From Anaeroplasma bactoclasticum (lineage in GTDB: Bacteria; Bacillota_I; Bacilli_A; Acholeplasmatales; Anaeroplasmataceae), in the NCBI GenBank assembly GCA_023663825.1, contig JAMPGQ010000010.1:1-44668 (forward strand): a stretch of DNA of 44,668 nucleotides, read 5' to 3'. Below, piece by piece: positions 24,914-43,060 of this stretch (the first letter of the stretch is position 1; each line of letters begins with the position of its first letter). The notes under the pieces are model-generated. The model ran no database searches and was not told where the DNA came from. It worked only from the letters and a program-made list of their open reading frames with translations. A program made the position numbers and the translations under genes.

Positions 24914-25493
24914 CTTCTTCAACTCCTCTTGATTCTCTTTTATATTTTACCCTTTCTTTTATATCCAAAATCGTGTCCTTAATAAATAAGAATATAAAGT
25001 CTACGATAATATAAAATAATGCATAAGAAAATGGTTCAATTCCATAATTGGTCATACCAAACGGATTAAGTATCAAACCATGTATTCCTAGAAAGTAAAC
25101 TATAAAATACAAAATGAATGATAATAAAAAATTATAAGCAAGAGCTATTGGAAATGATATAAAACCTTTGAAATTTATCATATTATAACGATAAACCTTA
25201 TTTTTCCTATTATACATCATCCGCACTGATGGACGAACAATATAATTAGAAAACAATGCCAAAAATAGTCCAATTAAAATTATTATAGCTATATCTATAG
25301 CAAATACCTGCTCACCAGTAACTTCCTTGTTTTCTCCTAAATTAAGACCATCACAAGAAATCACACTAAAGAAAATGGCAGCCGCAGCTGCCCAATACTT
25401 TAGTAAAAGAATAATGAGCCAAGAAGGAATTTTGGAGATTTTATCAGCCATATTTGTTTTCTCTGAAATGTCCTTTTTTCTATTTTTCTTCAT
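24906..25493 (-). CDS. Small polytopic membrane protein, pectin importer operon (fifth)
   Basis: 195 aa, not recognised. A polar charged N-terminus is followed by about four hydrophobic helices (roughly 27-45, 63-86, 110-135 and 150-172) and a basic tail. Its ATG overlaps the stop of the preceding membrane-protein gene (TAATG) and its own stop overlaps the GH28 start, so it is tightly co-translated. No ABC EAA loop or RDD-type signature. A role as accessory or membrane-scaffold subunit of the importer is inference from position. Confidence 0.75.
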   Translation of the reverse strand: MKKNRKKDISEKTNMADKISKIPSWLIILLLKYWAAAAAIFFSVISCDGLNLGENKEVTGEQVFAIDIAIIILIGLFLALFSNYIVRPSVRMMYNRKNKVYRYNMINFKGFISFPIALAYNFLLSFILYFIVYFLGIHGLILNPFGMTNYGIEPFSYALFYIIVDFIFLFIKDTILDIKERVKYKRESRGVEEDV

Positions 25494-26110
25494 TAAAATT
25501 TTACCTTTTTATATTCCTTATTTCTTCTAAAGTATCCTAAAATACATCCTGCAATTGAACATCCAATAGCTAGAACAACACATATAATTGACATTATAAC
25601 ATTAATATCTAATTCTAATGGATTCTTCAAATCAACTTTACCTGTCTTTACTAATACAAAGGAATTTATAATGCTATAAATCCATAGAATACCAAATATG
25701 GTAATAATTAATGAACATACTGCAGAAATAATTACGGATCCTAAGTTTCTTTTCGAACTTAATCCCACACCATTAAAAATGTTTATACATCCTAATAAAA
25801 CCATTATAAACATATAAAACCCAGATAAATCGGGAGTCCCATCTTGAACAACGAAACGTACTTTAGAATGGAATTCCAAAAAGAATCCGATAAATAATCC
25901 TGGTAAAGCTACTAAAATACCTGCTAATTTACATGGGTTATACTTAAATGTATCTAAGAATGATAACCAAACATTTAGAATGTATTTTTTAAAGGAAAAG
26001 CCTTCTTTTTTATTTTCATCCGAATTAGATGGTGTATTAACTTGTTCAACCTGTTGTGTTTCTTGATTTACTACTTCATCTTGAACAACTTCTTCTAATT
26101 TTTCATTCAT
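25493..26110 (-). CDS. Small polytopic membrane protein, pectin importer operon (fourth)
   Basis: 205 aa, not recognised. The first about 45 residues are acidic and Gln/Val-rich and look disordered and cytoplasmic. Four hydrophobic helices follow (about 62-80, 92-115, 123-150 and 170-192) with a basic C-terminus (YFRRNKEYKKVKF). It lies ten bases after the ATPase gene. No enzymatic or transport motif is seen. Confidence 0.75.
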   Translation of the reverse strand: MNEKLEEVVQDEVVNQETQQVEQVNTPSNSDENKKEGFSFKKYILNVWLSFLDTFKYNPCKLAGILVALPGLFIGFFLEFHSKVRFVVQDGTPDLSGFYMFIMVLLGCINIFNGVGLSSKRNLGSVIISAVCSLIITIFGILWIYSIINSFVLVKTGKVDLKNPLELDINVIMSIICVVLAIGCSIAGCILGYFRRNKEYKKVKF

Positions 26111-26120
26111 ACATCATCAC

Positions 26121-27248
26121 CTACCTAATTCTAACTTCTGTTTCTTTATCAAAGAAAAGAATTTTATCCTTCTTAAAACATGCTTTGATTTTTGAGTCTG
26201 TAATTTGATCTCTACCATCTGCTTTAGCAATAATTCTTTCACCACCAAAGGTTCCATACACTAATTTATATGAGCCCAAGAATTCAAAATAGTCAACTTC
26301 AATTTCAAAAACCTGCCCTGAATTAGCTTTTAAAGAATTATCATCAATAAATACATAGTCTGGTCTAGAAGCCATAATCACTTCTTTACCTGCATATTCT
26401 TTAAGAATACTTTTTAATTCTGGAGTTAATTCTATTTCTACACCAGAAGTATGAATAAACTTTGTGCATTTTTCATCAATAGAACCATTGTAAAAATTAC
26501 ATGGTGGAGTTCCAATAAATCCTGCTACAAAGACATTTTCTGGATGTTCAAACATTTCTTTAGGTGTAGCAATTTGCTGAACATAGCCATCTTTCATAAT
26601 AACAATTCTTGTCGCTAAAGTTAAGGCCTCAATTTGATCATGGGTTACGTAAATAAATGTAGCCCCTAAACGCTCATGCAATTCTAGTAATTCCTTACGC
26701 ATTGAACCACGCAATTTTGCATCTAAATTTGAGAGAGGCTCATCAAGCAAGAATACAACAGGGTTACGTACGATTGCACGTCCTACTGCAACTCTCTGTC
26801 TTTGTCCACCAGATAATTGCTTTGGCTTACGATTTAAATATGGAATCAAACCTAACACTGTAGCAGCATACATTACTTGCTTATGAATGACAACTGGGTC
26901 TGTCTTACGAATTGTAAGAGAAAACGCCAAATTTTGATAAACTGTCATGTGTGCATATAATGCATAATTTTGGAATACCATTGCAATATCTCTATCCTTA
27001 GGTGCAACATCATTTACACGTTTTCCATTAATAATAAGATCACCTGAACTAATTTCTTCTAGACCTGCAATCATACGTAACGTAGTCGATTTGCCACATC
27101 CAGAAGGTCCAGCTAATACAATAAAGTCACCCTTTTTAATTTCCATATTGAAATCATATACAGCATGAAAACCATTTGGATATACTTTGTTAATGTCTTT
27201 TAATATTACGTCAGAGGCAATTTGATTTTCATTAATATTTTCCATCAT
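26121..27248 (-). CDS. Carbohydrate ABC transporter ATPase, MsmX/UgpC type
   Basis: 375 aa. Walker A GPSGCGKST (47-55), Q-loop FQNYALYAH, signature LSGGQ (145-149), Walker B VFLLDE (165-170) and switch H203 are all intact. The C-terminal about 130 residues form the TOBE/MalK-type regulatory domain. LplB/LplC-type importers of Firmicutes usually borrow a shared MsmX encoded elsewhere; here the ATPase sits inside the operon between two pairs of membrane proteins. ATG 27248 or 27245 are both possible. Confidence 0.95.
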   Translation of the reverse strand: MMENINENQIASDVILKDINKVYPNGFHAVYDFNMEIKKGDFIVLAGPSGCGKSTTLRMIAGLEEISSGDLIINGKRVNDVAPKDRDIAMVFQNYALYAHMTVYQNLAFSLTIRKTDPVVIHKQVMYAATVLGLIPYLNRKPKQLSGGQRQRVAVGRAIVRNPVVFLLDEPLSNLDAKLRGSMRKELLELHERLGATFIYVTHDQIEALTLATRIVIMKDGYVQQIATPKEMFEHPENVFVAGFIGTPPCNFYNGSIDEKCTKFIHTSGVEIELTPELKSILKEYAGKEVIMASRPDYVFIDDNSLKANSGQVFEIEVDYFEFLGSYKLVYGTFGGERIIAKADGRDQITDSKIKACFKKDKILFFDKETEVRIR

Positions 27249-27250
27249 TT

Positions 27251-27841
27251 TTATACCCCCTTTGTTGTATCTTGTGTAGCTATGAAATTAGCATATTTTT
27301 GTGCCTTTGCAATGCCAATAATACCAGCTAAAATGAAACATGCTGCTGCACATCCTAAGAAGACCATTGCAGTGATCCCTCTAAAGTAACCATCCATCCA
27401 TAAATATGAATTTCTTAGGTAAGATCCTGTGATAGTAGGTCCGAGCTTTCCAGTTATCTGCTTGCCTGAATCAAGATACTTTGCATAATCAACAATCAAA
27501 GTCAAGGGACCCCATAATATTCTTAAACCACATACAACACCAATACCTATCAATACAATGCTATACTCTTTAGAATAAGCCTTTACTTTTTCAATAGATA
27601 AAAACCCAAACAATAAAATAATAATATTCATTAATATTTTAATGATTACTGTAAAATCCCATGCTAGTGAATTAAGCACTAAGAAAGCTGCTAATATACT
27701 AAACATTATGGCAAGCATACCTAATTTATATGATAATGAGTTCGTACGATAACGCATCATCTCTCCTTCAAGATTATTTACGTTATAATATACTTTTTCA
27801 GTACTCTCTACAACTCTATTATTTTCTACTTTATTACGCAT
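27251..27841 (-). CDS. Small polytopic membrane protein, pectin importer operon (third)
   Basis: 196 aa, not recognised. A charged N-terminus of about 38 residues is followed by helices at about 42-62, 66-84, 91-113 and 155-180, with a 35-residue loop before the last containing KLGPTITGSYLRNSYLW. ATG 27841 (MRNKVENN) is nine bases from AGGTGG; a TTG at 27850 would overlap the ribosome site. It overlaps the preceding gene by eight bases. Confidence 0.75.
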   Translation of the reverse strand: MRNKVENNRVVESTEKVYYNVNNLEGEMMRYRTNSLSYKLGMLAIMFSILAAFLVLNSLAWDFTVIIKILMNIIILLFGFLSIEKVKAYSKEYSIVLIGIGVVCGLRILWGPLTLIVDYAKYLDSGKQITGKLGPTITGSYLRNSYLWMDGYFRGITAMVFLGCAAACFILAGIIGIAKAQKYANFIATQDTTKGV

Positions 27842-28538
27842 TCTCTTCAACCACCTTTCCTTGTGCTAATTCTTTTTGGGTAGCTAGGTAGCGATATACA
27901 TTATATGCTATTAATAGTCCACAAACTACAATAAACACAATAAGAATAACACCAAAGATAATTAGTGGGGTAGAATTTATCTTAAACGCCGAAGTATCAC
28001 GTGGTGAAGCCATATATTGTGTAACTGCACTTTCAAAAGCCACTTGATTTCCAAGAGCTCCCCAATTGATCATATCATAGTTTTTTGACAAGGTTCCTAT
28101 AGGTAGGAATACAAATACTAATGCTACAATAGACATTATAATGGAGACTGCAGGACATGCAACACCTGATACTAAATTTGAGATATAATATTTTTTTCTA
28201 GATAAATTGGAGCATATTGCCATGATTACAAGCATAACTAATGCCACAACCCCAACCATCATAAACATATTGTTTGCCAGTTGTAATTCATTATTAAAAT
28301 TATATAGTGTTTGATACAAACTATCAAAAGAAATATTTGTGCGATTGCAAAACAATACCAAATTTTCATTTTGCGTTTTTATTGAAGTTACCAATCCATC
28401 AAGCACTTCTTGATTATAGTTCACTGCAGTATCATTATAAGGAGTAACGAAAAAGCATGCAGCTACTATAAAGAAAAATCCGAATACACCAAATATTAAA
28501 TAAAACAATTTGGCATGTTTTTTTAGAAATTGAGCCAT
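27834..28538 (-). CDS. Small polytopic membrane protein, pectin importer operon (second)
   Basis: 234 aa, not recognised. Helices at about 11-31, 88-110, 122-150 and 191-217. A loop of about 55 residues between the first two helices and another of about 40 between the last two are predicted outside, by the positive-inside rule with basic KKHAK at the N-terminus. It is separated from the solute-binding protein gene by a 98-base gap with a large hairpin. Confidence 0.75.
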   Translation of the reverse strand: MAQFLKKHAKLFYLIFGVFGFFFIVAACFFVTPYNDTAVNYNQEVLDGLVTSIKTQNENLVLFCNRTNISFDSLYQTLYNFNNELQLANNMFMMVGVVALVMLVIMAICSNLSRKKYYISNLVSGVACPAVSIIMSIVALVFVFLPIGTLSKNYDMINWGALGNQVAFESAVTQYMASPRDTSAFKINSTPLIIFGVILIVFIVVCGLLIAYNVYRYLATQKELAQGKVVEENA

Positions 28539-28553
28539 AAATACCCTCCAATC

Positions 28554-28602
28554 AAGTATTTTCTAGAAGGATGAACCTCTAATGTACATCCTTCTAGAAT
28601 AC
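28554..28602 (-). repeat. Large hairpin between solute-binding protein gene and downstream genes
   Basis: TCTAGAAGGATG (28562-28573) and CATCCTTCTAGA (28587-28598) are perfect inverted arms, extended outward by GTATT with a two-base bulge; the loop is 13 bases. On the minus strand no T-run follows, so I read it as an mRNA 3'-end protector or processing site that keeps the binding-protein message abundant. Confidence 0.7.
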
Positions 28603-28636
28603 TCAAAAATTTTATTTTTTTAATAGAATAACTTTT

Positions 28637-30697
28637 TTAGCTATTCTTTACTTCTAATAAATTTCTATATGCTGTTAAATAGATTTCATTTGATTTACCA
28701 AATAATGCTTCTAAATCAGCACGTTTAGTTGAAGCGCCAGCCCAACCTTTAAGAACAACTTCTCTCCAAGCAGAATCACCAGTTCCACGTTTCCAGAAAT
28801 TCTCTAATACTGCAATTTCAGTAGATTCAACAGTTCCTGACCATTGAGAAGGAACAGCTGCAGCAAATCCAGCTTGTCTATCAGAACGAGCAGAAATTAC
28901 AGCACCACTTTCAACAGCTAAGCTTAGATTACTAGCACCTACACGACCAGCAGCATTAGTGAATTGTAATTCAACACCATCTGTACGAACATGTCCGATA
29001 CCTTGAGTTGCACCTAAAGCCATACGACAATAGTTATTCCAACCACCAAACTTATTTACTTCATCAATTACTGTTTTGCTATAAGCAGGGAATGTTTGAT
29101 TACCAACCTTGAATTCACCATCACGATATGCTTCAGGACCATAATCTTGTAATAAAGAACCTTCTTTTGAGAAGAAATAATCAGCAAATGCACAAGCATT
29201 AATATTTTCTTGATCATCAGCATGAAGAGGAATTACAGTACCAGAACCCTTATTAGCACGAGAAGATTCAAGATATCTTGAATACTTATATTGAGAGTCA
29301 GTAATAGTATCATTTTCCCACTTAGATAGAGGTGGAAGTACTGGCATTACACCCTTAAACTTAGAATCCTTAGTACCAATTCCGTTCTCATCAACCTGAT
29401 TCATAACTGTTTGTGTAGCATTGTAATCAAACATTAATAATGCAGCACCTTGCTTACCAGTTAAATATTGGCTGTTATATTTTGTCTTATCACCACTATC
29501 AAATGCAGAAATAATTAAACCCTCAGTATATAATTGGTGTAATTTCTCTAATGCATCATAATTCTTAGCAGTTACACGACCATCTTGAAGTTTACCATCT
29601 TTGTCAAAGTAAAGAGCATCTTTTTCAGCCATACCTCTAATACCTTGAACACCCCAAATTTGGCTTAACCATAATACTGAATCTATACGAGAATCAGCGC
29701 CTTCACGTGGAATGAATCCTTGAACAGAAGCAGGACAACCAAATTTTGTACTAACATAGGTTGGATTATTTACAGCAACACGCATTAATGCAATTAGATC
29801 ATCAGTGTTATAGCATGCTTTTTCAGAAGTAAATACTTCAGAACGCTTAGTATAGACATTGCTTTGCATATAAGCTGTATCAATGTAGTTTCTTAAAGCA
29901 TCTGCATAAGTCTTACCATTCTTAGCTGTTAATTCATTTTGTGCAGTAACAGGGTTCTTAGCTCCCTTTACATTTAAAGTCTTAAGCTTACCACCATCTG
30001 AATAACTTACTTTATAATCAGATGCAGTATCTAAAAATGCAGAATAAGCAGTTTCTGCAGCTGCTGCAGTATCAAAGTCATTAGTATTTTCTGAGTCTAA
30101 TAATGCTTCTACTAATTCTGTATTCATAATGAATAAATGTTCAGGGGAATTAAGTCCATCAAAATATGGAAGCATGAACATTTGACCATCAGCGTTAGTC
30201 ATTTCTGACTTAATAGATGGGTTTGCATCTAAGAAAGCCTTATAATTAGGCATATAATTTAAATACTTGTTAATGTTTAACAACTTGCCATCTGCAGCAA
30301 ATTTGTTAGCATTAGCATTAGACATCATAACGATATCTAGTTCATTGAACTTCTCATATGACTTTAATGCAGTCTCTTGAGCATCATCCTTTACAGATTG
30401 ATATTGGTCAACACTCCAAGCAGCATCTTTGATTGTACATTCCAAAGTTGTTTGAAGTTGCTCCCATACTGGCAATAAATCTCCTTCTGAATATGTTTTA
30501 TTATCTACTGGATTTTTATAAGTCTTGTAATTAGATACTAATCCAGTAAAAGTAGGACCATAAGCGCCACAATAATTGATATAAACATCAATTGTAGAGC
30601 CCTTTAAATTGGCCTTTTTTGTTTCACCACAGCTTGCAAGAGATACTGCCATTAGACCACAAGCCGCAGCGCTTAATAATAAAGTTTTTTTCTTCAT
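28637..30697 (-). CDS. Solute-binding lipoprotein of the pectin/oligosaccharide ABC importer
   Basis: 686 aa, LplA-like. Signal peptide with lipobox LASC, lipidated C23. The mature part has the family-1 binding-protein look, with long insertions making it larger than LplA (about 500 aa). ATG 30697 (MKKKTLLL) has an AAGGAG ribosome site; a 56-codon upstream extension would run into the permease gene and is rejected. It would capture the oligosaccharide, probably oligogalacturonide, for the two upstream permeases. Substrate is inferred from the flanking pectinases. Confidence 0.92.
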   Translation of the reverse strand: MKKKTLLLSAAACGLMAVSLASCGETKKANLKGSTIDVYINYCGAYGPTFTGLVSNYKTYKNPVDNKTYSEGDLLPVWEQLQTTLECTIKDAAWSVDQYQSVKDDAQETALKSYEKFNELDIVMMSNANANKFAADGKLLNINKYLNYMPNYKAFLDANPSIKSEMTNADGQMFMLPYFDGLNSPEHLFIMNTELVEALLDSENTNDFDTAAAAETAYSAFLDTASDYKVSYSDGGKLKTLNVKGAKNPVTAQNELTAKNGKTYADALRNYIDTAYMQSNVYTKRSEVFTSEKACYNTDDLIALMRVAVNNPTYVSTKFGCPASVQGFIPREGADSRIDSVLWLSQIWGVQGIRGMAEKDALYFDKDGKLQDGRVTAKNYDALEKLHQLYTEGLIISAFDSGDKTKYNSQYLTGKQGAALLMFDYNATQTVMNQVDENGIGTKDSKFKGVMPVLPPLSKWENDTITDSQYKYSRYLESSRANKGSGTVIPLHADDQENINACAFADYFFSKEGSLLQDYGPEAYRDGEFKVGNQTFPAYSKTVIDEVNKFGGWNNYCRMALGATQGIGHVRTDGVELQFTNAAGRVGASNLSLAVESGAVISARSDRQAGFAAAVPSQWSGTVESTEIAVLENFWKRGTGDSAWREVVLKGWAGASTKRADLEALFGKSNEIYLTAYRNLLEVKNS

Positions 30698-30737
30698 TTT
30701 TTCTTTCTCCTTCTTTTTAAATCTTAAAACTTTATTT

Positions 30738-31598
30738 CTATTCTTTAACTCCACCAACATTAACACCTGCCGCAAAATACTTTTGTATTTTTGGATAGAT
30801 GATAATAATAGGGAGAATAGAACAAACCAATAATGCATATTGCATTGAATAAGGTGAATAATCAAGTGTCACACCAGCACTATTTGACATCTCAAGAACT
30901 TGAGTTAATGTATTTCTTATATATACTTGTAAAGGCTGATCCTTTGCACCAAGCAACATTTGCGCCCACAAATAACCATTCCAACGAGATATTGCATAGA
31001 ACATTGCAACTGTTGCAATAGAAGCTTTAGACATAGGTATATAAATTCTTGTCAAAAGTTGGAATTCTGAGGCTCCATCAATTGTAGCAGCTTCTTCTAT
31101 TTCTGTAGAAACGGATGAGAAGTAGTTTCTTAAAAGAATAATGTTAAACGCATTAAATCCTAAACCAATAATGTACATATATCTATTGTCAACGCCTAAA
31201 GACTTAAAGTTGTAGTAGGTAGGAATCAAACCTGCACTAAACCACATCGTAAATGTTAACAAGAAGTTAAATCCACGTCCAAACATCAATCTTGATTTAG
31301 ATAATGCATAAGCACCTGTGATGCCTACTAACATAGAAACCAAAGTACCATACATAGTATAGAAAAGTGTATTACAATATGCTAACCAGAATAATGAGTC
31401 AGAGAACACCTTTTCATATGCCTTAATCTGGAAACCAACAGGCCATAAATAAACAGCACCCTTGTCCATAGCATCAACACTTGAAATTGAAGCAGACACT
31501 AAATAAACAAATGGATAAAGACAAGCTATTGCAAATAAGGTCAACAAAACATAAGCAAGAACTTTAAATATGATTTCTGAACGATCTAATCTTTTCAT
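30738..31598 (-). CDS. ABC importer permease, LplC/YtcP type
   Basis: 286 aa, six transmembrane helices. The EAA loop reads EEAATIDGASEFQLLTRIYIP and would dock on the ATPase. The short C-terminus KYFAAGVNVGGVKE is typical of LplC-family permeases. An AGGAGG ribosome site precedes ATG 31598. It pairs with the LplB-type permease 14 bases upstream. Confidence 0.95.
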   Translation of the reverse strand: MKRLDRSEIIFKVLAYVLLTLFAIACLYPFVYLVSASISSVDAMDKGAVYLWPVGFQIKAYEKVFSDSLFWLAYCNTLFYTMYGTLVSMLVGITGAYALSKSRLMFGRGFNFLLTFTMWFSAGLIPTYYNFKSLGVDNRYMYIIGLGFNAFNIILLRNYFSSVSTEIEEAATIDGASEFQLLTRIYIPMSKASIATVAMFYAISRWNGYLWAQMLLGAKDQPLQVYIRNTLTQVLEMSNSAGVTLDYSPYSMQYALLVCSILPIIIIYPKIQKYFAAGVNVGGVKE

Positions 31599-31612
31599 TA
31601 TGTTTTTACCTC

Positions 31613-32635
31613 CTAGAACAATGACGTAGAAGACACTCTTCTACTAATTGCATTTGCACCTAATACCAAGCACATTGCTATTATTGAGTTAAATAAATCA
31701 GCTACTATACCAACTTGCTGTGCTCCTGCCGTAGAAACGGATGATGAATCTCCCGCACGACCTGACAAACGATAAACCAATGTCGATATAACTTCTGATG
31801 TTTCATATGAGTTTTCTTCAGTACCAACTAATAGAATGATTTTTTCATATCCAACATTAAGAATTTGACCTATACGCATAATTAACATAATTGTTAGGGT
31901 TGGAGCCATTCCTGGAAGAGTAACATATCGAATTTGTTGCCATTTTGAAGCACCATCTATTCTTGCCGCTTCATAATTTGTAGGCGAAATTGCCATAACA
32001 GCAGCAAAATATACTATCGAACCATATCCAGCGCCTTCCCATACACCAGAAATTTGATATATAGGTCTAAAATAACGAGGTTGCGATAACACGTTTGTAT
32101 CAGAAGGAAGCCAATTCATAGCTGTCAGCATTTGATTTAAAATACCAGGGGCAGCCATAGCAGTTGCCTTTTGGCACCACATTCTAATTAACGTAGTAAT
32201 AGTAACTACTGAAACGAAGTGTGGCAAATAACAGCACACTTGTAATACGCTACGATATTTTTCATTCTTAATCTCACTAAATAATAATGCGATGAAAATA
32301 GGGATAGGGAATCCGAAAAACAAACCATACATACTATTAACGAATGTATTTCTAAATGCTCTCCAAAACCAACCAGAATAAGGACTACTTGTATCGAACA
32401 ATAACATACCCCATTTGAAGCCAGCCCATTGATTAACTCTTAGATCAGTTCCAACGCCCCATCTAAAACCTTCTAAAATTCCTGCAATTGGCTTATATTT
32501 AAACAAAACCAAGAATACAAGCATTGGTAACAACAACACATAAAGTCTCCAATCCTTGATTAGTGTAAGAAATGTTCTTTTCCATTTCTCCTTTTCGACT
32601 TGATCAATTACTTTTTGATCTACTATTTTTTGCAT
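31613..32635 (-). CDS. ABC importer permease, LplB type
   Basis: 340 aa. A charged N-terminal arm precedes six helices. The segment FKYKPIAGILEGFR near residue 45 and the EAA loop YEAARIDGASKWQQIRYVTLP are hallmarks of the LplB family. Relatives in pectin and alginate importers carry acidic oligosaccharides. It starts three bases after the upstream membrane-protein gene. Confidence 0.95.
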   Translation of the reverse strand: MQKIVDQKVIDQVEKEKWKRTFLTLIKDWRLYVLLLPMLVFLVLFKYKPIAGILEGFRWGVGTDLRVNQWAGFKWGMLLFDTSSPYSGWFWRAFRNTFVNSMYGLFFGFPIPIFIALLFSEIKNEKYRSVLQVCCYLPHFVSVVTITTLIRMWCQKATAMAAPGILNQMLTAMNWLPSDTNVLSQPRYFRPIYQISGVWEGAGYGSIVYFAAVMAISPTNYEAARIDGASKWQQIRYVTLPGMAPTLTIMLIMRIGQILNVGYEKIILLVGTEENSYETSEVISTLVYRLSGRAGDSSSVSTAGAQQVGIVADLFNSIIAMCLVLGANAISRRVSSTSLF

Positions 32636-32638
32636 ACC

Positions 32639-33274
32639 TTAAAAATCCCCTTTCTTCTCTTCAAGATTTTCCTCTTCTTCAGGTAAATTCATTTTAAAAT
32701 TTTCAACCTCTTCTCTTTCATACTTTTGGCTAAGCATATTTTTCTTTACATTAACTAATATTCCTTGTCGGCTCAAAATAAATGATCCAACAAATAAAAT
32801 AACATAGCCAAAGGCATTCCAAACAGCAAAAGCCAATAGTTGAAATTTAAATGCAGTCATAAGATAAACCACACTCAAAGCTAGCAAAGAAACAATACTA
32901 TCTATTGCACATAGAGCGAATAAGGATTGTAATTTACTAGTTGTTTCTTGCTCATCCTTTATTTTTTTAAACCACAACAAGTTAATAGACATAGATAATA
33001 ATTGAGCTAATATTGCAAGGTATAATCTCCAATCATAATTTTGTCTATAATCTACATGTGGATTTATAAGAAAGCCACTCAGTGTTGTTGCTAAAGCCAA
33101 TAATGGCGAGATAAGAAGTCCTCTCCATCCCCAACGAAATGTTGCAACCATCATTATTAGTAAAGAAATAGATGTGGTTATTATTGATGCAATTAGCATT
33201 TTATTAAAGACAAAAATGCCAAGGACTTCCACAGCACAGCCTATTATAGTTAAAACGATGAGGTCTATTGCCAT
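32639..33274 (-). CDS. Polytopic membrane protein heading the pectin importer operon (first)
   Basis: 211 aa, not recognised. About six hydrophobic helices (4-24, 26-46, 51-70, 84-101, 117-141 and 146-167), then an acidic tail rich in Glu. ATG 33274 lacks a good ribosome site. The strong GAGGAGG lies 25 bases upstream, before ATG 33299, which opens a five-codon ORF (MLYEF, stop). Removing one T from the TTTT run at 33287-33284 would fuse the two frames as MLYEFKKYMAIDL, so a frameshift, sequencing error or leader peptide is possible. It is not a clear YesL (DUF624) relative. Confidence 0.7.
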   Translation of the reverse strand: MAIDLIVLTIIGCAVEVLGIFVFNKMLIASIITTSISLLIMMVATFRWGWRGLLISPLLALATTLSGFLINPHVDYRQNYDWRLYLAILAQLLSMSINLLWFKKIKDEQETTSKLQSLFALCAIDSIVSLLALSVVYLMTAFKFQLLAFAVWNAFGYVILFVGSFILSRQGILVNVKKNMLSQKYEREEVENFKMNLPEEEENLEEKKGDF

Positions 33275-33296
33275 ATATTTTTTAAAACTCGTACAA

Positions 33297-33307
33297 CATT
33301 CCTCCTC
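33297..33307 (-). promoter_or_regulatory. Ribosome site and five-codon reading frame before the importer operon
   Basis: GAGGAGG (33307-33301) is well spaced from ATG 33299-33297; that frame ends after MLYEF at the TAA beginning at 33284. See the neighbouring gene for the frameshift alternative. Confidence 0.5.
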
Positions 33308-33407
33308 TTATTCCACAAATAAGCTGGGATTTCATCCATCACTTCAATTTTTTTAAAAATGCTTTGAAATACCCAAAACCTTTTAGGGCAATAAAAAATT
33401 TTCATAT

Positions 33408-33428
33408 AACGCTATAATAGCGTTTTCA
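33408..33428 (-). promoter_or_regulatory. cre-like operator overlapping a 17-bp palindrome, importer operon
   Basis: The minus strand reads TGAAAACGCTATTA (33428-33415), matching the CcpA cre consensus TGWAARCGYTWNCW at 13 of 14 positions. It overlaps the perfect palindrome AACGCTAT-A-ATAGCGTT (33408-33424). It lies about 6-19 bases after the expected transcription start, a roadblock position. Confidence 0.75.
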
Positions 33429-33440
33429 TAATTCTATATT

Positions 33441-33469
33441 ATTTTAACACCTTTACATTTTATAGTCAA
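33441..33469 (-). promoter_or_regulatory. Promoter of the pectin importer operon
   Basis: TTGACT (33469-33464), 17 bases, TAAAAT (33446-33441) on the minus strand. The same elements and spacing occur in front of the lipoprotein-PL9 operon at 38420-38448. Confidence 0.8.
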
Positions 33470-33507
33470 TAGAAAACGCTTAATTTTTTTGTTTTCTATT
33501 GACTATA
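33461..33507. repeat. Perfect 17-bp inverted repeat around the importer -35 region
   Basis: TATAGTCAATAGAAAAC (33461-33477) and its exact reverse complement (33491-33507) flank a 13-base AT-rich spacer. One arm includes the -35 hexamer. There is no T-run after the stem on the minus strand, so a terminator for the PL9 gene is unlikely; a dimeric regulator site or a recent inverted duplication is more likely. Confidence 0.75.
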
Positions 33508-33540
33508 AGTAATTCATTTAATCGATAAGTTGCAGATTAA

Positions 33541-36500
33541 TTATCTTAAAGTTACAGTCTTTGTTTCTGCATCATAAATCCAAATATTTTCTAAATCATA
33601 ATTTAACGTTCCTGTCCAGAATACTAATTCCTTTAATAAGACTGAAAGGTTAGCCTTAGAACTATCATATAGTTGATTATATTCAGCATAGCTACCATAA
33701 CAAGTAACTACATTTGAATAACCCGTACCTGAGCTTGCAGGGTTTCGACCAATGATTGGACTACAATTCTTTAATCCTGTTATAAATGGAGCTTGATTAT
33801 AAACACATTCAAAATTGCTTGCACAATTATTTATATCAATTTGACATACGCCATTATTAAATCCTGCCAATATACCACCACAGTAATTATGTGCAGTAAT
33901 ATGTCCTGAATAAACTGAATTTGTCACAGTCAACTTCATATAATCTTGTCTATCATCAAATCGACCAATTAATCCACCAACATAATCATAACCTTCTATA
34001 TCACTTACAACATGGCAATTAGACATTTCAATTGTAAGCTCTCTTGCAGAAGACTCATCTTGAACAAAACCAATAATTGCTGCTATTCTATCATGAGCGA
34101 CAATTTTATGGTCGGCATCATTATATACACCAATTTGAGTAAAATAATTGTATCCAGAACCAATTCTACCTACCACTGCTGCAGAACGATCTGCTGCGGC
34201 TTTTCCTAAATCCACATTTATATTTCTAATCTTAACATTGTGGATATAGCCACCATTCATTTGTCCAATAAGTCCTGCATATTGTGCAGATGAAGATGCT
34301 GCAGTAATTGAAATATTTTCAAATTCCACATTCATAATTGTACCATTTTTCATCTTGTAAAAAATGGAATAACCTGTACTATCATTTAAAGAAATATTAC
34401 TAATCTTATGATTTTGACCATTGAATAGACCAACAAAGGTTTGACTACTCTTCGTAATAGTTACATTTGCAAAATCTAAGTCTTTAGTCAATAGGTAAAT
34501 TGTAGAACTATTTGTTGAACCAGTTGTCATTGCCATAAATTCTGCTTCTGAAGTTATCTCTTGGAATTTCACTTGTGCAGTTTTTACTTCTGATATAACA
34601 GAACCCTCTAGATTTTCTACAACCATATGAACATAATAGCCATTTGTATTTTCATTTTTGAACGTTTGATAGATAACGTCATCAGTAATTTCTATTTTAT
34701 TACCACTAGATTTAATTGTTTCAATAGTTTCTATTTCATTATTAGAATCTAATACATACATATAGCCACTAACATAAGTCAATGCCGCTGTGACTGCGTA
34801 TCCATCTCTATTTACATCTACTGTTGGAGTAGCATCAAAATCAATCGTTGCAGATGCACTATTTACAAAAATTAAATAAGAGAGTGTCTTAACATCATCC
34901 ACATTAGTTTTAGATGTGATCTTGTAATTTACTTTGTATACACCATCTCGAGAAGTGTAAACGTCATCTACCACATAGAATTTCGCTTTCTTATTAGCAC
35001 CATATTCAATCTTTCTTTCAACTTCATATTCACTTTCATCCAGAATTTTTCCAGAATAAGATGCTGAATTTGTAACAATCAATCTAGGCATTGAAAATAA
35101 ATCATATTGATTAATAATTAATTTTCCGTCTACAACGCCTTCAGCAGAGACAGTTCCAATACCTGGAGTATCTTTCATAACTGTTAGAGTAAATGTCTTT
35201 TTTAAAAGAGCGTTTTTATATTCAATCTCAGCCGTTAAAGTGACTTCTTTATTTTCATTCTTTGGCCTATAAATTGATAGAACAATTTCACTAGAGTTAG
35301 ATAGTGAAGTAATAACTTCTTCTCCTACAGATATAGTATTTGGATCAGAAGATATCCAGTTGACTGTGCAACCATTAACAATTGTAGGTGCTAGCATGTC
35401 TTGGAACACTGCTTCTGGATTACAATTTACCTCTAACACATCATAAGCAGATAACACTTTTAATTCTTCTTCTGATAATTCCTCTGTAGGTCTTTGTAAT
35501 ACGAAATGCTTATATTGATCATAAGATGTTTTAGTTAAATCTGCACCAACACCACTTTCCTTTAAAGCCTTATCATTAAGACTTAAGAAATCACCTAATT
35601 GAATAGAACCATCAGCATTTCTTAATGTTTTATGAATTTCTCGATTATTTAAACCATTCATACTTGTAATATCTTTAAATACATCATCGTTCATTCCATC
35701 AAACGCAACGCCTCTTTTAGATGCGTCACGAGAAGATGCATCAATAACATTTTCAATTCGATTATATTTCTTACCACCCATATAAACTACACTATTTTTC
35801 ATTGAGCCTAAGAATTTATCTGCAGTTGCAGTTTTATTATTCACATAAGATAATAGGTTTTCATAATTGTTATAGCTTGCTTCAGATCTTGCTAAATCAA
35901 AATTACAGGATTCAGTATCATTTCCAGATAATGTAGTATCAACCACTCCATTTTCATCAATTGTTGCACAGTTATTAAAGGCTGTACAATTTTTTACAGA
36001 AATAACACCTGGGTTTGAGTTATCACCGATACCTTGTAATCTGTTATTGAATGATACACAGTTTTCTAAGATAACATCACCCTTCATTGTGCTACCACCA
36101 AGCTTAAAGCCGATGCCATCACCATCACGAGTGGTAAAACGCTCAACACCTGCTTCAGTTACTTTGTTTAATAAGAATCCATTTTCAAATGATAAACAAT
36201 TATAAAGTATAACGGTTCCGATATTACCAGAATCTTGTTTAGCAAACAAATCCCAACCATCATCACTATTACGATAAGCAATACATCCATCAAATACATT
36301 ACCGAAACCTACAGTAAGTTTTGCAGCAAAACCATCTGCATTTTCACCATATGTTACATCATCATAATTATTATAGGATGTACAATTTTTTATCAGATTG
36401 TTACATGGCCAATAATTTTGGAAATTATATCCTCCTGAAGCACGACCAATCTGCAAGCCAGTATCTCTATTCTCATGGAATAAGCAATTTTCAACAATGT

Positions 36501-36963
36501 TGAAGCTTCCACCAATATACATACCATTATCACCAGCGCCTTTAACTTCAATGTTGTTAAAGTGCCAGTAGCTACCATTTACAGTAATACCACGGTTCGT
36601 TCCTTCAAAAGCCATTGCGCTAAAATCAAATATAGCTGGATCTGTTGAATCATTTTCAACCGTGATGTAATTATACATATCTCCAGATTGTGTTTCTTCA
36701 ATAAAAATTCTTGTTGGCAAATTATATGTACCAGGCATTACTTTTAAAGTATCGCCCCTACTTAAATTCTTAAATGCTGTGTATGCATCATATGGACTGT
36801 CTTGTGTCCCTTCATTTGTAGATTTTCCACTAGTACTCATATAAATGGTTTTCTTTTCTACTGGTGGATTTGGGTCTATGGGCTGATTAGTAGTATTCCC
36901 CTTACAACCAACTAAAGCAATGCCCATTAATAATAAAGCTGGAATAAATTTTCTTTTTTTCAT
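33541..36963 (-). CDS. Surface lipoprotein with PL9 pectate lyase domain and Ig/GLUG-type C-terminus
   Basis: 1140 aa. Lipobox LVGC, lipidated C20. A PL9 beta-helix occupies roughly 38-480: ENADGFAAKLTVG (about 207-219, catalytic Lys at about 215) and NSDDGWD (about 232-238) carry the lysine and Ca2+-binding aspartates. An atrophied Ig-like domain with WISSDPNTISVG follows (about 500-595), then further beta domains. A C-terminal second beta-helix (about 810-1060) has GLUG-like repeats (AGLIGQMNGG, VGGLIGRFD). It cleaves unesterified pectate outside the cell by beta-elimination. ATG 36963 is seven bases from AGGAGG; ATG 36969 is too close. Confidence 0.9.
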   Translation of the reverse strand: MKKRKFIPALLLMGIALVGCKGNTTNQPIDPNPPVEKKTIYMSTSGKSTNEGTQDSPYDAYTAFKNLSRGDTLKVMPGTYNLPTRIFIEETQSGDMYNYITVENDSTDPAIFDFSAMAFEGTNRGITVNGSYWHFNNIEVKGAGDNGMYIGGSFNIVENCLFHENRDTGLQIGRASGGYNFQNYWPCNNLIKNCTSYNNYDDVTYGENADGFAAKLTVGFGNVFDGCIAYRNSDDGWDLFAKQDSGNIGTVILYNCLSFENGFLLNKVTEAGVERFTTRDGDGIGFKLGGSTMKGDVILENCVSFNNRLQGIGDNSNPGVISVKNCTAFNNCATIDENGVVDTTLSGNDTESCNFDLARSEASYNNYENLLSYVNNKTATADKFLGSMKNSVVYMGGKKYNRIENVIDASSRDASKRGVAFDGMNDDVFKDITSMNGLNNREIHKTLRNADGSIQLGDFLSLNDKALKESGVGADLTKTSYDQYKHFVLQRPTEELSEEELKVLSAYDVLEVNCNPEAVFQDMLAPTIVNGCTVNWISSDPNTISVGEEVITSLSNSSEIVLSIYRPKNENKEVTLTAEIEYKNALLKKTFTLTVMKDTPGIGTVSAEGVVDGKLIINQYDLFSMPRLIVTNSASYSGKILDESEYEVERKIEYGANKKAKFYVVDDVYTSRDGVYKVNYKITSKTNVDDVKTLSYLIFVNSASATIDFDATPTVDVNRDGYAVTAALTYVSGYMYVLDSNNEIETIETIKSSGNKIEITDDVIYQTFKNENTNGYYVHMVVENLEGSVISEVKTAQVKFQEITSEAEFMAMTTGSTNSSTIYLLTKDLDFANVTITKSSQTFVGLFNGQNHKISNISLNDSTGYSIFYKMKNGTIMNVEFENISITAASSSAQYAGLIGQMNGGYIHNVKIRNINVDLGKAAADRSAAVVGRIGSGYNYFTQIGVYNDADHKIVAHDRIAAIIGFVQDESSARELTIEMSNCHVVSDIEGYDYVGGLIGRFDDRQDYMKLTVTNSVYSGHITAHNYCGGILAGFNNGVCQIDINNCASNFECVYNQAPFITGLKNCSPIIGRNPASSGTGYSNVVTCYGSYAEYNQLYDSSKANLSVLLKELVFWTGTLNYDLENIWIYDAETKTVTLR

Positions 36964-36981
36964 AATCATACCTCCTCTTGC

Positions 36982-38361
36982 CTATTCTGCTGTTGGAAAA
37001 ATTGTAATAGTAGCGCCATAAATGTACATTCCACTTAAAGTAGAACCTAAATGATATGTCCCAGCTTCAGAAATTTCAAATGTATATTTTTGTACTGCAT
37101 TTTTAACTTTAACAGCATCTCCTTTTTGAAGTTCAACAAAAGATGTATTATATAAAGCAATGCATCTTTCTTCTCCTTCCTTAATGGAAGCAGAGTATAC
37201 AACTTCTATAGTACCAGCTCCTGGCATAATCACTCCCATATTCTGGCTTGCCGAAGCTTTTCCACCAAAATTCAATCTCTTTGTATATTGAACACCATCT
37301 AATTCTTTGTCATTTAAATCAACTTTCTTGCAAATATAAGTAATATAGTCTCCATATTTCAATGGTGTTGAAATTTGAGTCGCAACCTCATTTAAATCAC
37401 TTGCATTAAATTTAATTACGAGAGGTTTATTAGCGTCAGGATTTTCACCCACAGTAACAGTAACTTTACATTCCTTTGTTACTCCCATTTCTGAATAAGT
37501 AATAGTGACGGTCTGTTCTCCAGAAAAACCTGTACTAACACCACTTACTGAATATTGACCTGCTGGAATTGTAGCAGAATCATTGTTGGCATATGTTGCC
37601 TCAATTACCCAATCTGTTGTAACAAACTCTGAACCAAACTCAAATTCAGTCTTTCCAGATTTGAATTCTATTTTCGTTACTGGATTCAAATAAGTTACTA
37701 ATAAAAAGTTCTTTACTGTAACTTCTTGAGTAACACCATCTGATGTATAAGATTCCTTTAGAGAAAATACAACAAGATAATTTCCTGCTTTGGTTTTATC
37801 TACACCAGTTGTATCTAAAGTAACATCTCCTAATGCTATAGGAGTCATTGTATCATCTGAATATATAGTTGTAATACTAACACCTGTAAGATCAACATCT
37901 TCACCTATACTATATACAAATTCCTTGTCAGCTGGATCTGTATTTACATCTAATCCAACTAAATGCTTAATATTATTTTCGAGTATTGTTTTTACATCTA
38001 CAGTAAAATTACTTGTTCTTACTCTTCCCTCATATGTATAAGAAACGATGATTAAATATTGTCCCAATGCATTTGAGTCAAAGCTTTGACTATTAATTTG
38101 AATATCTTTTGTTACATCCTCAGACGTATTATTCGTAAAATCAGCAGTAACCTTTAAGCCTGTGCTATCAAAAGATTGTCCTAAATAATACTCCTTTTTT
38201 ACATTGGTTGTATCAAGCTCTATTTTATCCAAAGCTTTTCTTAATTCTACTGTTGGTTTCTCATCAGGTTTTGGATCTGATTTGTTCGATTGACAAGCAA
38301 CGAAAAAAAACATTTCGCAAACCAGCAGTAGTGCAAATAAAACTTTACTAATTTTTTTCAT
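36982..38361 (-). CDS. Surface lipoprotein with Ig-like repeats, possible pectin-binding module
   Basis: 459 aa. Lipobox FVAC, lipidated C23. Three tandem bacterial Ig-like (Big_3-like) units of about 90 residues (roughly 40-125, 130-225 and 228-302) share the pattern Y-x-x-G-x-x-x-D/T-x-x-G-x-x-V/I. The C-terminal about 150 residues form a separate beta-rich domain ending TYHLGSTLSGMYIYGATITI, which resembles accessory domains attached to pectate lyases. It could bind polysaccharide or space the lyase from the membrane. First gene of the operon, 18 bases before PL9. No catalytic motif seen. Confidence 0.75.
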   Translation of the reverse strand: MKKISKVLFALLLVCEMFFFVACQSNKSDPKPDEKPTVELRKALDKIELDTTNVKKEYYLGQSFDSTGLKVTADFTNNTSEDVTKDIQINSQSFDSNALGQYLIIVSYTYEGRVRTSNFTVDVKTILENNIKHLVGLDVNTDPADKEFVYSIGEDVDLTGVSITTIYSDDTMTPIALGDVTLDTTGVDKTKAGNYLVVFSLKESYTSDGVTQEVTVKNFLLVTYLNPVTKIEFKSGKTEFEFGSEFVTTDWVIEATYANNDSATIPAGQYSVSGVSTGFSGEQTVTITYSEMGVTKECKVTVTVGENPDANKPLVIKFNASDLNEVATQISTPLKYGDYITYICKKVDLNDKELDGVQYTKRLNFGGKASASQNMGVIMPGAGTIEVVYSASIKEGEERCIALYNTSFVELQKGDAVKVKNAVQKYTFEISEAGTYHLGSTLSGMYIYGATITIFPTAE

Positions 38362-38394
38362 ATAATTCTTCCTTCCTCACTACCACAAAAACAA

Positions 38395-38408
38395 TAATAG
38401 CGTTTTCA
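38395..38408 (-). promoter_or_regulatory. cre-like operator of the lipoprotein-PL9 operon
   Basis: The minus strand reads TGAAAACGCTATTA, identical over all 14 bases to the site in the importer promoter and 11 bases downstream of the -10. Here only one half of the 17-bp palindrome is kept. Confidence 0.75.
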
Positions 38409-38419
38409 TAGTTTAATCT

Positions 38420-38460
38420 ATTTTAACATTTTAAAACTATGTAGTCAATAATTCTATTGA
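38420..38460 (-). promoter_or_regulatory. Promoter of the lipoprotein-PL9 operon with inverted repeat at -35
   Basis: TTGACT (38448-38443), 17 bases, TAAAAT (38425-38420). The -35 overlaps TCAATA-ATTC-TATTGA (38445-38460), a shorter counterpart of the large inverted repeat at the importer promoter. Confidence 0.78.
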
Positions 38461-38489
38461 ATCAAATTCAATGTTTTTCTCATTTACTA

Positions 38490-38518
38490 TATACAAAAAA
38501 CAGAAAATCTTTTATAAT
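38490..38518 (+). promoter_or_regulatory. Promoter of the pectin methylesterase gene
   Basis: TATACA (38490-38495), 17 bases, TATAAT (38513-38518). It diverges from the lipoprotein operon promoter; no cre-like site of its own is seen. Confidence 0.65.
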
Positions 38519-38540
38519 ATTTGTAATTGAGGTGATTATT

Positions 38541-39455
38541 ATGTTGATGGAAATAACACATCTGCAAAGCATTAATGATGCAATCTCCCAAATGTCCCCA
38601 GGGGATATATTAGTTTTGAACGATGGAATCTATCATGAAAAAGTAGAAATATGGTTAGATAATATAACTATTCGTGCTAAAAATATAGGAAAAGCCATCA
38701 TTACGAATAAAGATTATTACCATAAAATTATGCCTGATAAAAATGAATGCAATACATTTCATACATATACAGTATATGTTGGAGGAAATCATATACATTT
38801 AGAAGGACTGCTTCTTCAAAATGAAGCAATTCCTTCTAATGTTTATGGTCAAGCTGTAGCTTTACATGTTGATGGAAATCATTTTCAATGTGAACACTGT
38901 ATTATAGAAAGTGCTCAAGACACTTTATTCACAGGTCCACTTCCAGAAGATTTATGCAAACGCTATGCTTCTTTCTATCCACCTGAAAAATTAAAAGGAA
39001 TCTCTTCAAAGCAAATTTATAAGCATTGTACCATTAAAGGAGATGTCGATTTTATTTTTGGATGTGCAACAGCTTTGTTTGAAGAATGTACAATCATCAC
39101 TATAGATTCCAATCGAACAACTCCTTCTTTTGTATGTGCTCCTGCACATCCTAAGGAGCTCCCTTTTGGGTATTTATTTTATCATTGTCAATTTAAAGGA
39201 AAAGAAAAAGCGTTTCTTGCAAGACCTTGGCGAGACTATGGGTGTGCCGCTTTCATTGAATGCGAATTAGGAGATCATATTCTTCCTAAAGGCTATGATA
39301 AATGGAATGATACTCATCGTGATCAAACCGCAAGATTTTATGAATATACTAAAAACAAGGATGTTAGTCAAAGAGTCTCTTGGTCTCATCAATTATCTTC
39401 TGTGGAAGCTAAAACTTATATAATAAATTTTAAAACTTTCTTAGAAAAAAAATAA
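38541..39455 (+). CDS. Pectin methylesterase (CE8), leaderless
   Basis: 304 aa beta-helix enzyme removing methyl groups from pectin. Signatures are GQAVALHV (103-110), QDTL (126-129), DFIFG (170-174) and ARPWR (227-231), which hold the two catalytic aspartates, the glutamine and the arginine. There is no signal peptide, so it probably acts on imported methylated oligogalacturonides. GAGGTGA fits ATG 38541; the longer 38457 start begins before the promoter and is rejected. Divergent from the PL9 operon. Confidence 0.93.
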   Translation: MLMEITHLQSINDAISQMSPGDILVLNDGIYHEKVEIWLDNITIRAKNIGKAIITNKDYYHKIMPDKNECNTFHTYTVYVGGNHIHLEGLLLQNEAIPSNVYGQAVALHVDGNHFQCEHCIIESAQDTLFTGPLPEDLCKRYASFYPPEKLKGISSKQIYKHCTIKGDVDFIFGCATALFEECTIITIDSNRTTPSFVCAPAHPKELPFGYLFYHCQFKGKEKAFLARPWRDYGCAAFIECELGDHILPKGYDKWNDTHRDQTARFYEYTKNKDVSQRVSWSHQLSSVEAKTYIINFKTFLEKK

Positions 39456-39643: not shown

Positions 39644-40426
39644 ATGACAAAAATCATTGTGGCTGATGACAATAAAGAATTATTAAATATGATCAGCGAA
39701 TTTTTAAAAATGCAACCTAATATGGGGGTTGTGGAAACTTTTACTGGTGGCAAAGAGTTATTGAACTACCTAGAAACTAACACTGCAGACATTTTGCTGT
39801 TGGATGTTTTTATGCCTGATCTTGATGGCGTGAATACTTTAAATGAAATTAAGTCTAATCCGAAATATAATAGACCTAATAAAGTAGTTATTATTACTGC
39901 ATTTAACACGGAATCTATTATGACAAAAACATCCGCTTTAGGGGCTGACTATTTTATCGTGAAACCAATTGATTTAAATAATCTTCATAAAACTTTAAAT
40001 CAATTAGTTAATGAGGAAGCGACAAAAGGTATCACATACAACCTTAAAGAAAAGAACAAGAACACGAATGTCGACTTAGATACAGAAATCACTGAAATCC
40101 TTCACGAAATTGGTGTACCAGCTCATATTAAAGGCTATTTGTATTTAAGAGAGGCTATTACTATGGTTTATAATAATGTGGATATATTAGGAGCAATTAC
40201 AAAATACCTATATCCTACTGTGGCCAAAAAATATAAAACCACATCATCGCGAGTAGAAAGAGCCATTCGTCATTCTATTGAAGTAGCTTGGAATAGAGGT
40301 AATGTTGATGCTATTTCACAAATATTTGCATATACCATCAGTTATAACAAAAGTAAACCAACAAACTCTGAATTTATTGCAATGATTGCTGACAAATTAA
40401 GGTTAGCACATAAAGTTGTATATTAA
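39644..40426 (+). CDS. spo0A: Master sporulation response regulator Spo0A
   Basis: 260 aa. The receiver domain (1-120) has acidic D8-D9, phospho-acceptor D54 in [12 protein letters not shown], and the conserved Lys in FIVKPID. The DNA-binding domain (about 145-260) carries the Spo0A-specific [20 protein letters not shown] and the recognition helix region [16 protein letters not shown]. When phosphorylated it would start sporulation. The usual spoIVB neighbour is absent here; the gene stands alone between pectin and housekeeping genes. Confidence 0.96.
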
Positions 40427-41589: not shown

Positions 41590-41621
41590 AAAAAAGGGCA
41601 TCAGGCTTTATCTGATGTCCC
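41590..41621 (-). terminator. Terminator of the DUF1508 protein gene
   Basis: On the minus strand GGGACATCAG (41621-41612) pairs with CTGATGCCC (41604-41596) with one bulged base, followed by six Ts. Confidence 0.8.
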
Positions 41622-41635
41622 CAGTTCTTTTATAA

Positions 41636-43060
41636 TTATTTCTTTTCCTCGATCTCTGCATCTTTGAAATAGGATACTACAGAAAGAGCTGCTGATTCTG
41701 CCAATTGCTTAGAATTATAAGATTCTCCACTTGTAGCAAGTCTTCCACTAGCAGTATATAAATTGTAATAAAAATTACCATTCTTATCCTTAAGAATTTT
41801 AAACGAACCAGTCTCTACATTCTTTTTGAAGCTTTCTATTGAACTCAAAGCGCCACTCTTAGAAGTATAGCCTTCAGCTTGACAAAGAATTTGTCCATTA
41901 GAAGCCTTCAAATCCCAACTAAATTCACCATCATACTTCTCAACAACATATTTGCCACCTTCTTTTTCTTCAGCTACAGTGGTATCTAAGTATGCTTCAA
42001 CTATATTTTCATCCTTTGTAGGAGTAGCTATTTCAACAATATTTGCCTTTAAAGCAAAATTCTTAAATGACTCAGAAGAGCGTACAGCACTCTTTTCTGT
42101 AGAATAACTTGAGCCTAACGCTAATACTCTATAATTTTTAGAGGTTAGCTTAAATTTATATAACCCACGTTTATCTTTAATAATTCTTATTTCACCGTCT
42201 TCAACGTTTCTCTTTACAGCATCTATAGCTTTCATTGCACTATCCTTAGTAGTATAAACTTCACTTACCACTAAAACCTCTCCATTAGATGCTTTTAAAC
42301 GATATTGATATCCATCCCCACTAGGATAAACCTCATACTTACCAGAATAAGTTCTGCCTTCTGCTGGTTTAGCAGCAGTTTTCTTTGTAGAAGCTGCCTT
42401 CTTTACTGGTGTTTTCTTTTCTTCTTCCTTCTTTGGTGTAGCAACTGTTTTCTTTGCTACTGGTTTTGTAGAAGCTGTCTTCTTTACTGGCGCCTTCTTT
42501 TCTTCTTCCTTCTTTGGTGTAGCAACTGTTTTCTTTGCTACTGGCTTTGTAGAAGTTGTCTTCTTTACTGGCGCCTTCTTTTCTTCTTCCTTCTTTGGTG
42601 TGGTAGCTGTTTTCTTTGCTACTGGTTTTGTAGAAGCTGTCTTCTTTACTGGCGCCTTCTTTTCTTCTTCCTTCTTTGGTGTAGCAACTTCTTCTTTTAA
42701 TATAGGAGTAATATCTTTACTTTCCTCTTCTTTTTTCTCTTCAGTTAAAGCTTCTTCTTGAACAGATTCTTCAACTAAAATAGGATTTTCTTCTAACTTA
42801 GTATCAGCAACTGGCTCCTCAGTTACTACTGGATTTTCAGTAGGTAGTTCTTCTGTTTTAGGAAGCTCTTCTTGATTCTGTGATCCCTGCTTTGCTGCTT
42901 CTTCCATTGCTTCATATTTTTTATCTCTCTCGTTTTGAATAATTTTAGAAGCGACATATACAATGAGAAGTAATGCCAAAACCCCCGCAATTGCACTAAA
43001 AAATACTACATCTACTTTGTTTGAAAAAATACCTTCTCCAGCCAATATATTTAATAACAT
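41636..43060 (-). CDS. Membrane-anchored protein with lysine-rich repeats and DUF1508 (YegP-like) domains
   Basis: 474 aa. One N-terminal helix (about 18-41) is followed by an acidic Glu/Pro/Val region (50-125), about four lysine/alanine repeats of 27 residues (unit KKEEEKKAPVKKTASTKP plus VAKKTVATP, about 128-230), then four DUF1508 units in two pairs (about 240-335 and 370-468). Each unit has the F/Y-x-L-K-A-S-N-G-x-x-L and S-Y/GYTSKxxA pattern. The role of DUF1508 is unknown. The lysine repeats resemble histone-H1-like tails and might bind acidic polymer, DNA or teichoic acid. Confidence 0.85.
   Translation of the reverse strand: MLLNILAGEGIFSNKVDVVFFSAIAGVLALLLIVYVASKIIQNERDKKYEAMEEAAKQGSQNQEELPKTEELPTENPVVTEEPVADTKLEENPILVEESVQEEALTEEKKEEESKDITPILKEEVATPKKEEEKKAPVKKTASTKPVAKKTATTPKKEEEKKAPVKKTTSTKPVAKKTVATPKKEEEKKAPVKKTASTKPVAKKTVATPKKEEEKKTPVKKAASTKKTAAKPAEGRTYSGKYEVYPSGDGYQYRLKASNGEVLVVSEVYTTKDSAMKAIDAVKRNVEDGEIRIIKDKRGLYKFKLTSKNYRVLALGSSYSTEKSAVRSSESFKNFALKANIVEIATPTKDENIVEAYLDTTVAEEKEGGKYVVEKYDGEFSWDLKASNGQILCQAEGYTSKSGALSSIESFKKNVETGSFKILKDKNGNFYYNLYTASGRLATSGESYNSKQLAESAALSVVSYFKDAEIEEKK
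42395..42700 (-). repeat. 81-bp tandem repeats, about four copies
   Basis: The mark CTTTACTGG recurs at 42401, 42482, 42563 and 42644, an exact 81-bp period encoding the 27-residue lysine-rich unit. Copies differ at few positions, so copy number may vary between strains. Confidence 0.9.

Follow-up and report, generated by a model that had tools for sequence, protein, structure and literature searches.

A membrane-anchored protein with a charged, repeat-rich tether and a doubled YegP-like head in Anaeroplasma bactoclasticum

The gene and its parts

ORF 41636-43060, on the reverse strand of the window (the whole stretch of DNA analysed here, 44,668 nt from Anaeroplasma bactoclasticum), encodes a predicted protein of 474 aa in which a membrane anchor is followed by an acidic segment, lysine repeats and a head of four DUF1508 units. 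Comparison of this protein with its relatives shows that the head is constant and the tether is variable in the predicted products. The combination of anchor, charged tether and double YegP is a new architecture for a known domain of unknown function, and we found no description of it in the open-licence literature. The parts of the gene are as follows.

41636..43060, minus strand: whole gene (ORF; four Pfam DUF1508 matches), encoding anchor, acidic segment, lysine repeats and four DUF1508 units
42935..43009, minus strand: transmembrane helix region, residues 18-42, predicted N-out/C-in from hydropathy and the K/R count
42686..42934, minus strand: acidic tether segment, residues 43-125, net charge -17
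42353..42685, minus strand: lysine-rich repeat segment, residues 126-236, with 36 K and 13 E, net charge +24, in 27-aa units
41639..42349, minus strand: head, four DUF1508 units forming two tandem YegP-like domains (Pfam, AlphaFold2, VIA-align)
41599..41617, minus strand: intrinsic-terminator-like hairpin found by a scan, 3' of the gene and ahead of a Methyltransf_32 gene

The original prediction of a membrane anchor agrees with the single transmembrane helix given by hydropathy and the K/R count. There is one K/R on the N side of this helix and four on the C side, and the 17-residue N-terminal tail ahead of it is predicted to be outside. The blocks of opposite charge that had been read from the sequence are also present, and the head that follows them (residues 237-474) is near neutral, with a net charge of +1. 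Every DUF1508 match in the window genome lies within this ORF.

The head is predicted to be a double YegP domain

Pfam DUF1508 (PF07411) matches four stretches of the protein (E 2.3e-36; 123.9 bits against a cut-off of 22), which places it in the family. The DUF1508 modules had been described as paired, and this is borne out by the alignment of units 1-2 with units 3-4 (104 aa, 36% identity). Among the 72 four-unit proteins collected, mean identity is 37% between units 1 and 3, 32% between units 2 and 4, and 19-24% for the other pairs. Since the halves are alike and the units pair 1/3 and 2/4, the head is a duplicated two-unit YegP domain.

An AlphaFold2 model of the head, built on an alignment of eight sequences, has a mean pLDDT of 86.4 and a pTM of 0.72. 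In VIA-align the model matches 2k49 with a Z of 16.1 (113 residues, 2.1 A) and 2k8e with a Z of 15.9, over 111-113 residues, in a list of structures that barely covers model residues 114-237. The next structures of the YegP family score Z 7.1-7.4 over about 60 residues, and structures outside it Z 7.0 or less. The modelled head has the YegP fold, with repeated three-strand-plus-helix units, and phmmer matches the protein to Escherichia coli YegP (E 1e-8). The cut-off of the HVO_2922 family (NCBIfam NF041908) was missed, at 79.8 of 90 bits.

Matches to structures of HIV reverse transcriptase (Z 5-6, about 64 residues) were taken to reflect a common strand-helix arrangement. 7b5h_AD, a chain of a cyanobacterial contractile-injection base plate, matches head model residues 4-101 (Z 7.0 over 97 residues) and is not among the matches of the sequence profile. 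The structure-match lists hold no DNA-binding fold for the head, an absence that carries no weight. A viral origin finds no support, as a scan of viral contigs gave no relative of the head and Foldseek against BFVD returned nothing at E 0.001 or below. No function for DUF1508/YegP was found in the open-licence literature, despite the solved structures.

Relatives share the head and differ in the tether

DUF1508 is present in 52 of the 100 relatives searched and in 50 of a sample of 395 genomes of the class; matching genomes without fetched regions are G063 and G069 among the relatives and G160, G247, G296 and G398 in the class sample. The named contigs that carry relatives come from metagenome-assembled genomes. 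The 79 proteins collected, the window's included, have four units in 72 cases, eight in one, three in two, two in three and one in one. The eight units of L061:5702-7618 form two four-unit blocks. Three genomes (G025, G033 and G039) carry a second copy of four units in which the linker is short or absent (L062, L071 and L077).

Tandem Repeats Finder places the repeat array of the window gene at 42384-42697 (period 81, 3.9 copies, 93% matches, score 551); the other four rows in the window score 53-65. The original prediction of exact 81-bp repeats is right as to the period, but the copies are near-exact: pairs among copies 1-3 show 2-5 mismatches in 81 nt, and copy 4 has 22 nt mismatched with each of the three. 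The expectation that the array would be unstable is supported by runs of 100 N within it in two close assemblies (L005 and L007), by a contig that starts just ahead of the head in a further one (L006) and by units that differ among congeners. Because of these N runs and this contig break, copy numbers in such assemblies are unreliable.

Absence of the repeat from relatives had been named among the findings that would refute the original prediction, and here the result is divided. The 81-bp unit occurs in the window gene alone among 75 genes scanned (four rows, L122-L125, were excluded), but each of the five congeners (the window among them) whose N-terminus is complete has a lysine-rich tract, either as other repeat units or with no clean repeat. 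Lysine arrays among close congeners have periods of 81 bp (window), 78 bp (L046) and 69 bp (L045), and the best tandem array of L040, L043 and L044 is acidic. Tandem DNA repeats are present in 41 of the 75 genes, with the best array 5' of the head in 40 of the 41, and across relatives the periods range from 15 to 195 bp and the units are acidic or basic. We regard the lysine repeats as the form that a rapidly changing tether takes in one species; being such a local variant, they are probably not the functional core.

Anchors differ and the head is predicted to face the cytoplasm

K/R is higher on the linker/head side of the last helix in 33/33 transmembrane forms, including the window's, when 15 residues are counted on each side (six rows, L045, L047 and L122-L125, were left out). 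This count of equal flanks at the last helix replaced an earlier one by net charge of unequal flanks, which had given 28/33. By the K/R rule, which is a predictor, linker and head are very probably in the cytoplasm. Two receptor-like proteins (L116:2464-4434 and L117:2079-4070) begin with a signal peptide, which is followed by an ectodomain (about 180 aa), a helix, an acidic tether and four DUF1508 units. With signal peptide and ectodomain ahead of the helix, the head should be inside in these two as well, which is independent support. L100 and L101 have four helices, with the C-terminal end inside. In the group f24 the helix gives way to an aromatic-basic peptide at the N-terminus, for example MCFFKKW or MCWFFKKKKK, which may be an in-plane lipid anchor. 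The anchor types seen are thus a single helix, a signal peptide with ectodomain and helix, four helices, an aromatic-basic N-terminal peptide, and none, and the tree requires eight changes of type, throughout which the head is retained.

Charge of the tether

A stretch was scored as strongly basic at a net charge of +6 or more per 30 aa and as acidic at -9 per 30 aa, thresholds that were set after viewing the table. Of the 79 rows, 14 were dropped before the count because an end was truncated, N runs were present or the units numbered fewer than four (L041, L042, L045, L047, L051, L052, L054, L075, L077, L086 and L122-L125). An acidic stretch is present in 31/33 anchored and 4/32 unanchored forms, and a strong basic tract in 17/33 and 22/32, respectively. 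The association between anchor and acidic stretch gives a Fisher value of 6.8e-12 when relatedness is ignored and is not significant when it is allowed for (three independent pairs on well-supported branches, with a mean of 2.4 in the expected direction). That an acidic stretch goes with a transmembrane anchor is a lead only.

Most anchored relatives have an acidic linker. In the window protein the charge of the linker is polarized, with the basic part nearer the head (0/2000 shuffles as high). The linkers of genus g4 (L050, L056, L059, L063, L065, L067, L069 and L072) are without this polarity, 449-1586 of 2000 shuffles being as high in 8/8 rows; these proteins have no basic tract before the head and, in 8/8, a K/T-rich tail C-terminal to it. 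Polarity is reversed in L116 and L117, for which the scored stretch began after the signal peptide and so took in the ectodomain and second helix.

Genomic context

A Methyltransf_32 gene lies downstream in 25 of the 78 genes examined, in the window's family. In the window the two genes are separated by the terminator-like hairpin (41599..41617; fold -15.8 kcal/mol, z -3.74), and no operon partner common across families was found. Because of the hairpin and of the different neighbours in other lineages, we claim no function by association. The f24 genomes (L102-L111, L114, L115 and L121) have the order rplM, rpsI, four-unit DUF1508 gene, cardiolipin synthase, rmuC; cardiolipin synthase and RmuC genes are downstream in 13 of 15 fetched loci, and genes for ribosomal L13 and S9 are upstream in 8-9. 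The assignments were made by TIGR04265 for the cardiolipin synthase of L115 (389.9 bits against a cut-off of 290) and by PF02646 for the RmuC of L109 (189.6 bits against 26). RmuC has no match in the window genome. A single pathway does not emerge from the neighbours.

The window genome has three matches over the cut-off to the penicillin-binding transpeptidase family (PF00905) and one TagB/F-type match; the LCP (wall-polymer ligase) family has no match. A full Spo0A gene is present in the window at 39644-40426. The transpeptidase matches and the Spo0A gene fit the gene content published for the Anaeroplasmataceae, which had been classed as wall-less: peptidoglycan genes are present in 40-60% of genomes and sporulation genes, including spo0A, in the majority (PMC10868615). 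The window also holds a probable pectin-use locus at 23375-39455, with a GH28 gene (23375-24922), a gene for a pectate-lyase-like beta-helix protein (33541-36969) and a pectinesterase gene (38457-39455). The ORFs between them are sugar ABC transporter-like, by reading of the sequence rather than by family search.

Comparison with known systems

The order of parts is that of FtsY and ZipA, in which an anchor is followed by a long acidic or charged flexible linker and a cytoplasmic domain; the heads of FtsY and ZipA are unrelated to YegP in name and function. With E. coli YegP/UPF0339 (2k8e, 2k49, 2k7i, 3bid and 6q2z) the protein shares unit sequence and predicted fold. The solved members are small (60-130 residues), whereas here an anchor and a charged tether are followed by two tandem YegP modules.

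The repeats had been called histone-like, a label that applies to composition only. HC2 (PF07382) scores 36.2 bits against the Pfam cut-off of 40, with an alignment spanning profile positions 25-125 of 194, and 37.1 in the whole-genome search, likewise under the cut-off. The Burkholderia histone H1-like family (NF038053) scores 29.4 of 80 bits and the KPAA unit is absent from the 474-aa sequence. Judged by their own cut-offs, the histone H1-like families do not include this protein. It shares with HC2, the Burkholderia proteins and AlgP repeats that are rich in lysine, alanine, proline and threonine and variable in copy number, but here an anchor and a folded head are joined to them and there are glutamates within each unit. 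The 36-aa repeats of Hc2 vary among strains (PMC2848022), and the lysine repeats of AlgP and PhaF bind DNA or tether granules (PMC9239181). Polyphosphate tethering, as in AlgP, was put aside because polyphosphate kinase (PF02503) has no match in the genome.

A protein that works like this one, and is not kin to it, is p180/RRBP1 of the endoplasmic reticulum, with a short outer N-terminus, one helix, cytoplasmic lysine-rich tandem basic repeats and a C-terminal domain (PMC3362647). It differs in being eukaryotic and in having a C-terminal coiled coil instead of YegP domains, and the available part of that paper does not describe an acidic segment; the same part reports that a peptide of the repeats alone was not seen to bind RNA (PMC3362647).

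Interpretation

The explanation that we prefer, tentatively and at a little under an even chance, is that the protein is a cytoplasm-facing, membrane-tethered adaptor, with a lysine tract that weakly binds a polyanion, most likely nucleic acid, and a head that holds a partner near the membrane. The single helix (N-out, C-in) would be the membrane anchor. From it a long disordered tether, with its acidic part next to the membrane and its lysine-rich part next to the head, would hold the double-YegP head in the cytoplasm, where the head would bind its partner. In the window's genus the lysine tract would add weak, sequence-independent binding to a cytoplasmic polyanion, so that nucleic acid and the head's partner would both be kept near the membrane. 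Slippage would create repeats in the fast-evolving tether, and the repeats would set its length and charge. We infer the disorder of the tether, the binding of partner and nucleic acid and any role of copy number; DNA binding by the lysine tract, which had been proposed originally, is possible. As 16/33 anchored relatives are without a strong basic tract, polyanion binding is not a family-wide function.

The same 16 proteins also fit an account in which the tether is no more than a flexible charged spacer, its repeats expanding and contracting neutrally and its composition drifting between acidic and basic; the linker would then determine the reach, and all function would lie in the head. The differences in repeat unit, period (15-195 bp) and charge among close relatives agree with this, as do the eight changes of anchor type on the tree under a persisting head. 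However, a lysine tract is present in all five complete congeners and, at the C-terminal end, in 8/8 proteins of genus g4, and a basic tract is kept in 22/32 unanchored forms. We regard the spacer as a serious possibility, though a less probable one than the adaptor. Another account has the lysine tract controlling the reach of the head by binding either anionic lipid of the membrane in which the protein sits or the acidic segment of the same protein. Acidic stretches in 31/33 anchored against 4/32 unanchored forms, and the cardiolipin synthase and RmuC genes downstream in 13/15 f24 loci, point this way. That association, however, is not significant given relatedness and rests on post hoc thresholds, and the f24 operon belongs to a family other than the window's, whose genome has no RmuC match; such binding seems unlikely. 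Finally, the original prediction allowed, as its second option, that the lysine tracts hold anionic wall polymers. Three transpeptidase matches and one TagB/F-type match make a wall possible, and a DUF1508 lipoprotein is named in Mycoplasma hominis (PMC11096450). A part that binds wall polymers should lie outside the membrane, yet the K/R rule predicts linker and head inside in 33/33; the LCP ligase family has no match in the genome, and the acidic linker of most anchored relatives would repel such polymers. Outward-facing repeats that hold teichoic acid or other wall polymers are therefore highly improbable. The predicted cytoplasmic topology argues strongly against wall polymers; the candidate ligands that it leaves for the lysine tract are DNA, RNA and anionic lipid.

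A wider view of the adaptor, which is speculative and on present evidence rather doubtful, is that these proteins form a family, so far without a name, of modular tethers between membrane and cytoplasm in uncultured Bacilli, with a fixed double-YegP head, interchangeable anchors and an electrostatically tuned tether, and that through them DNA or RNA and stress responses are connected with the membrane. Acidic tethers would occur chiefly in forms with a helix, as a means of keeping the basic tract available to DNA or RNA. YegP homologues are reported to follow the DNA-damage-responsive capK-capS pair in 57 cases (PMC13373217). A doubled, inward-facing and membrane-tethered YegP would narrow where the ligand of this domain must be, and it supplies constructs with which this can be tested.
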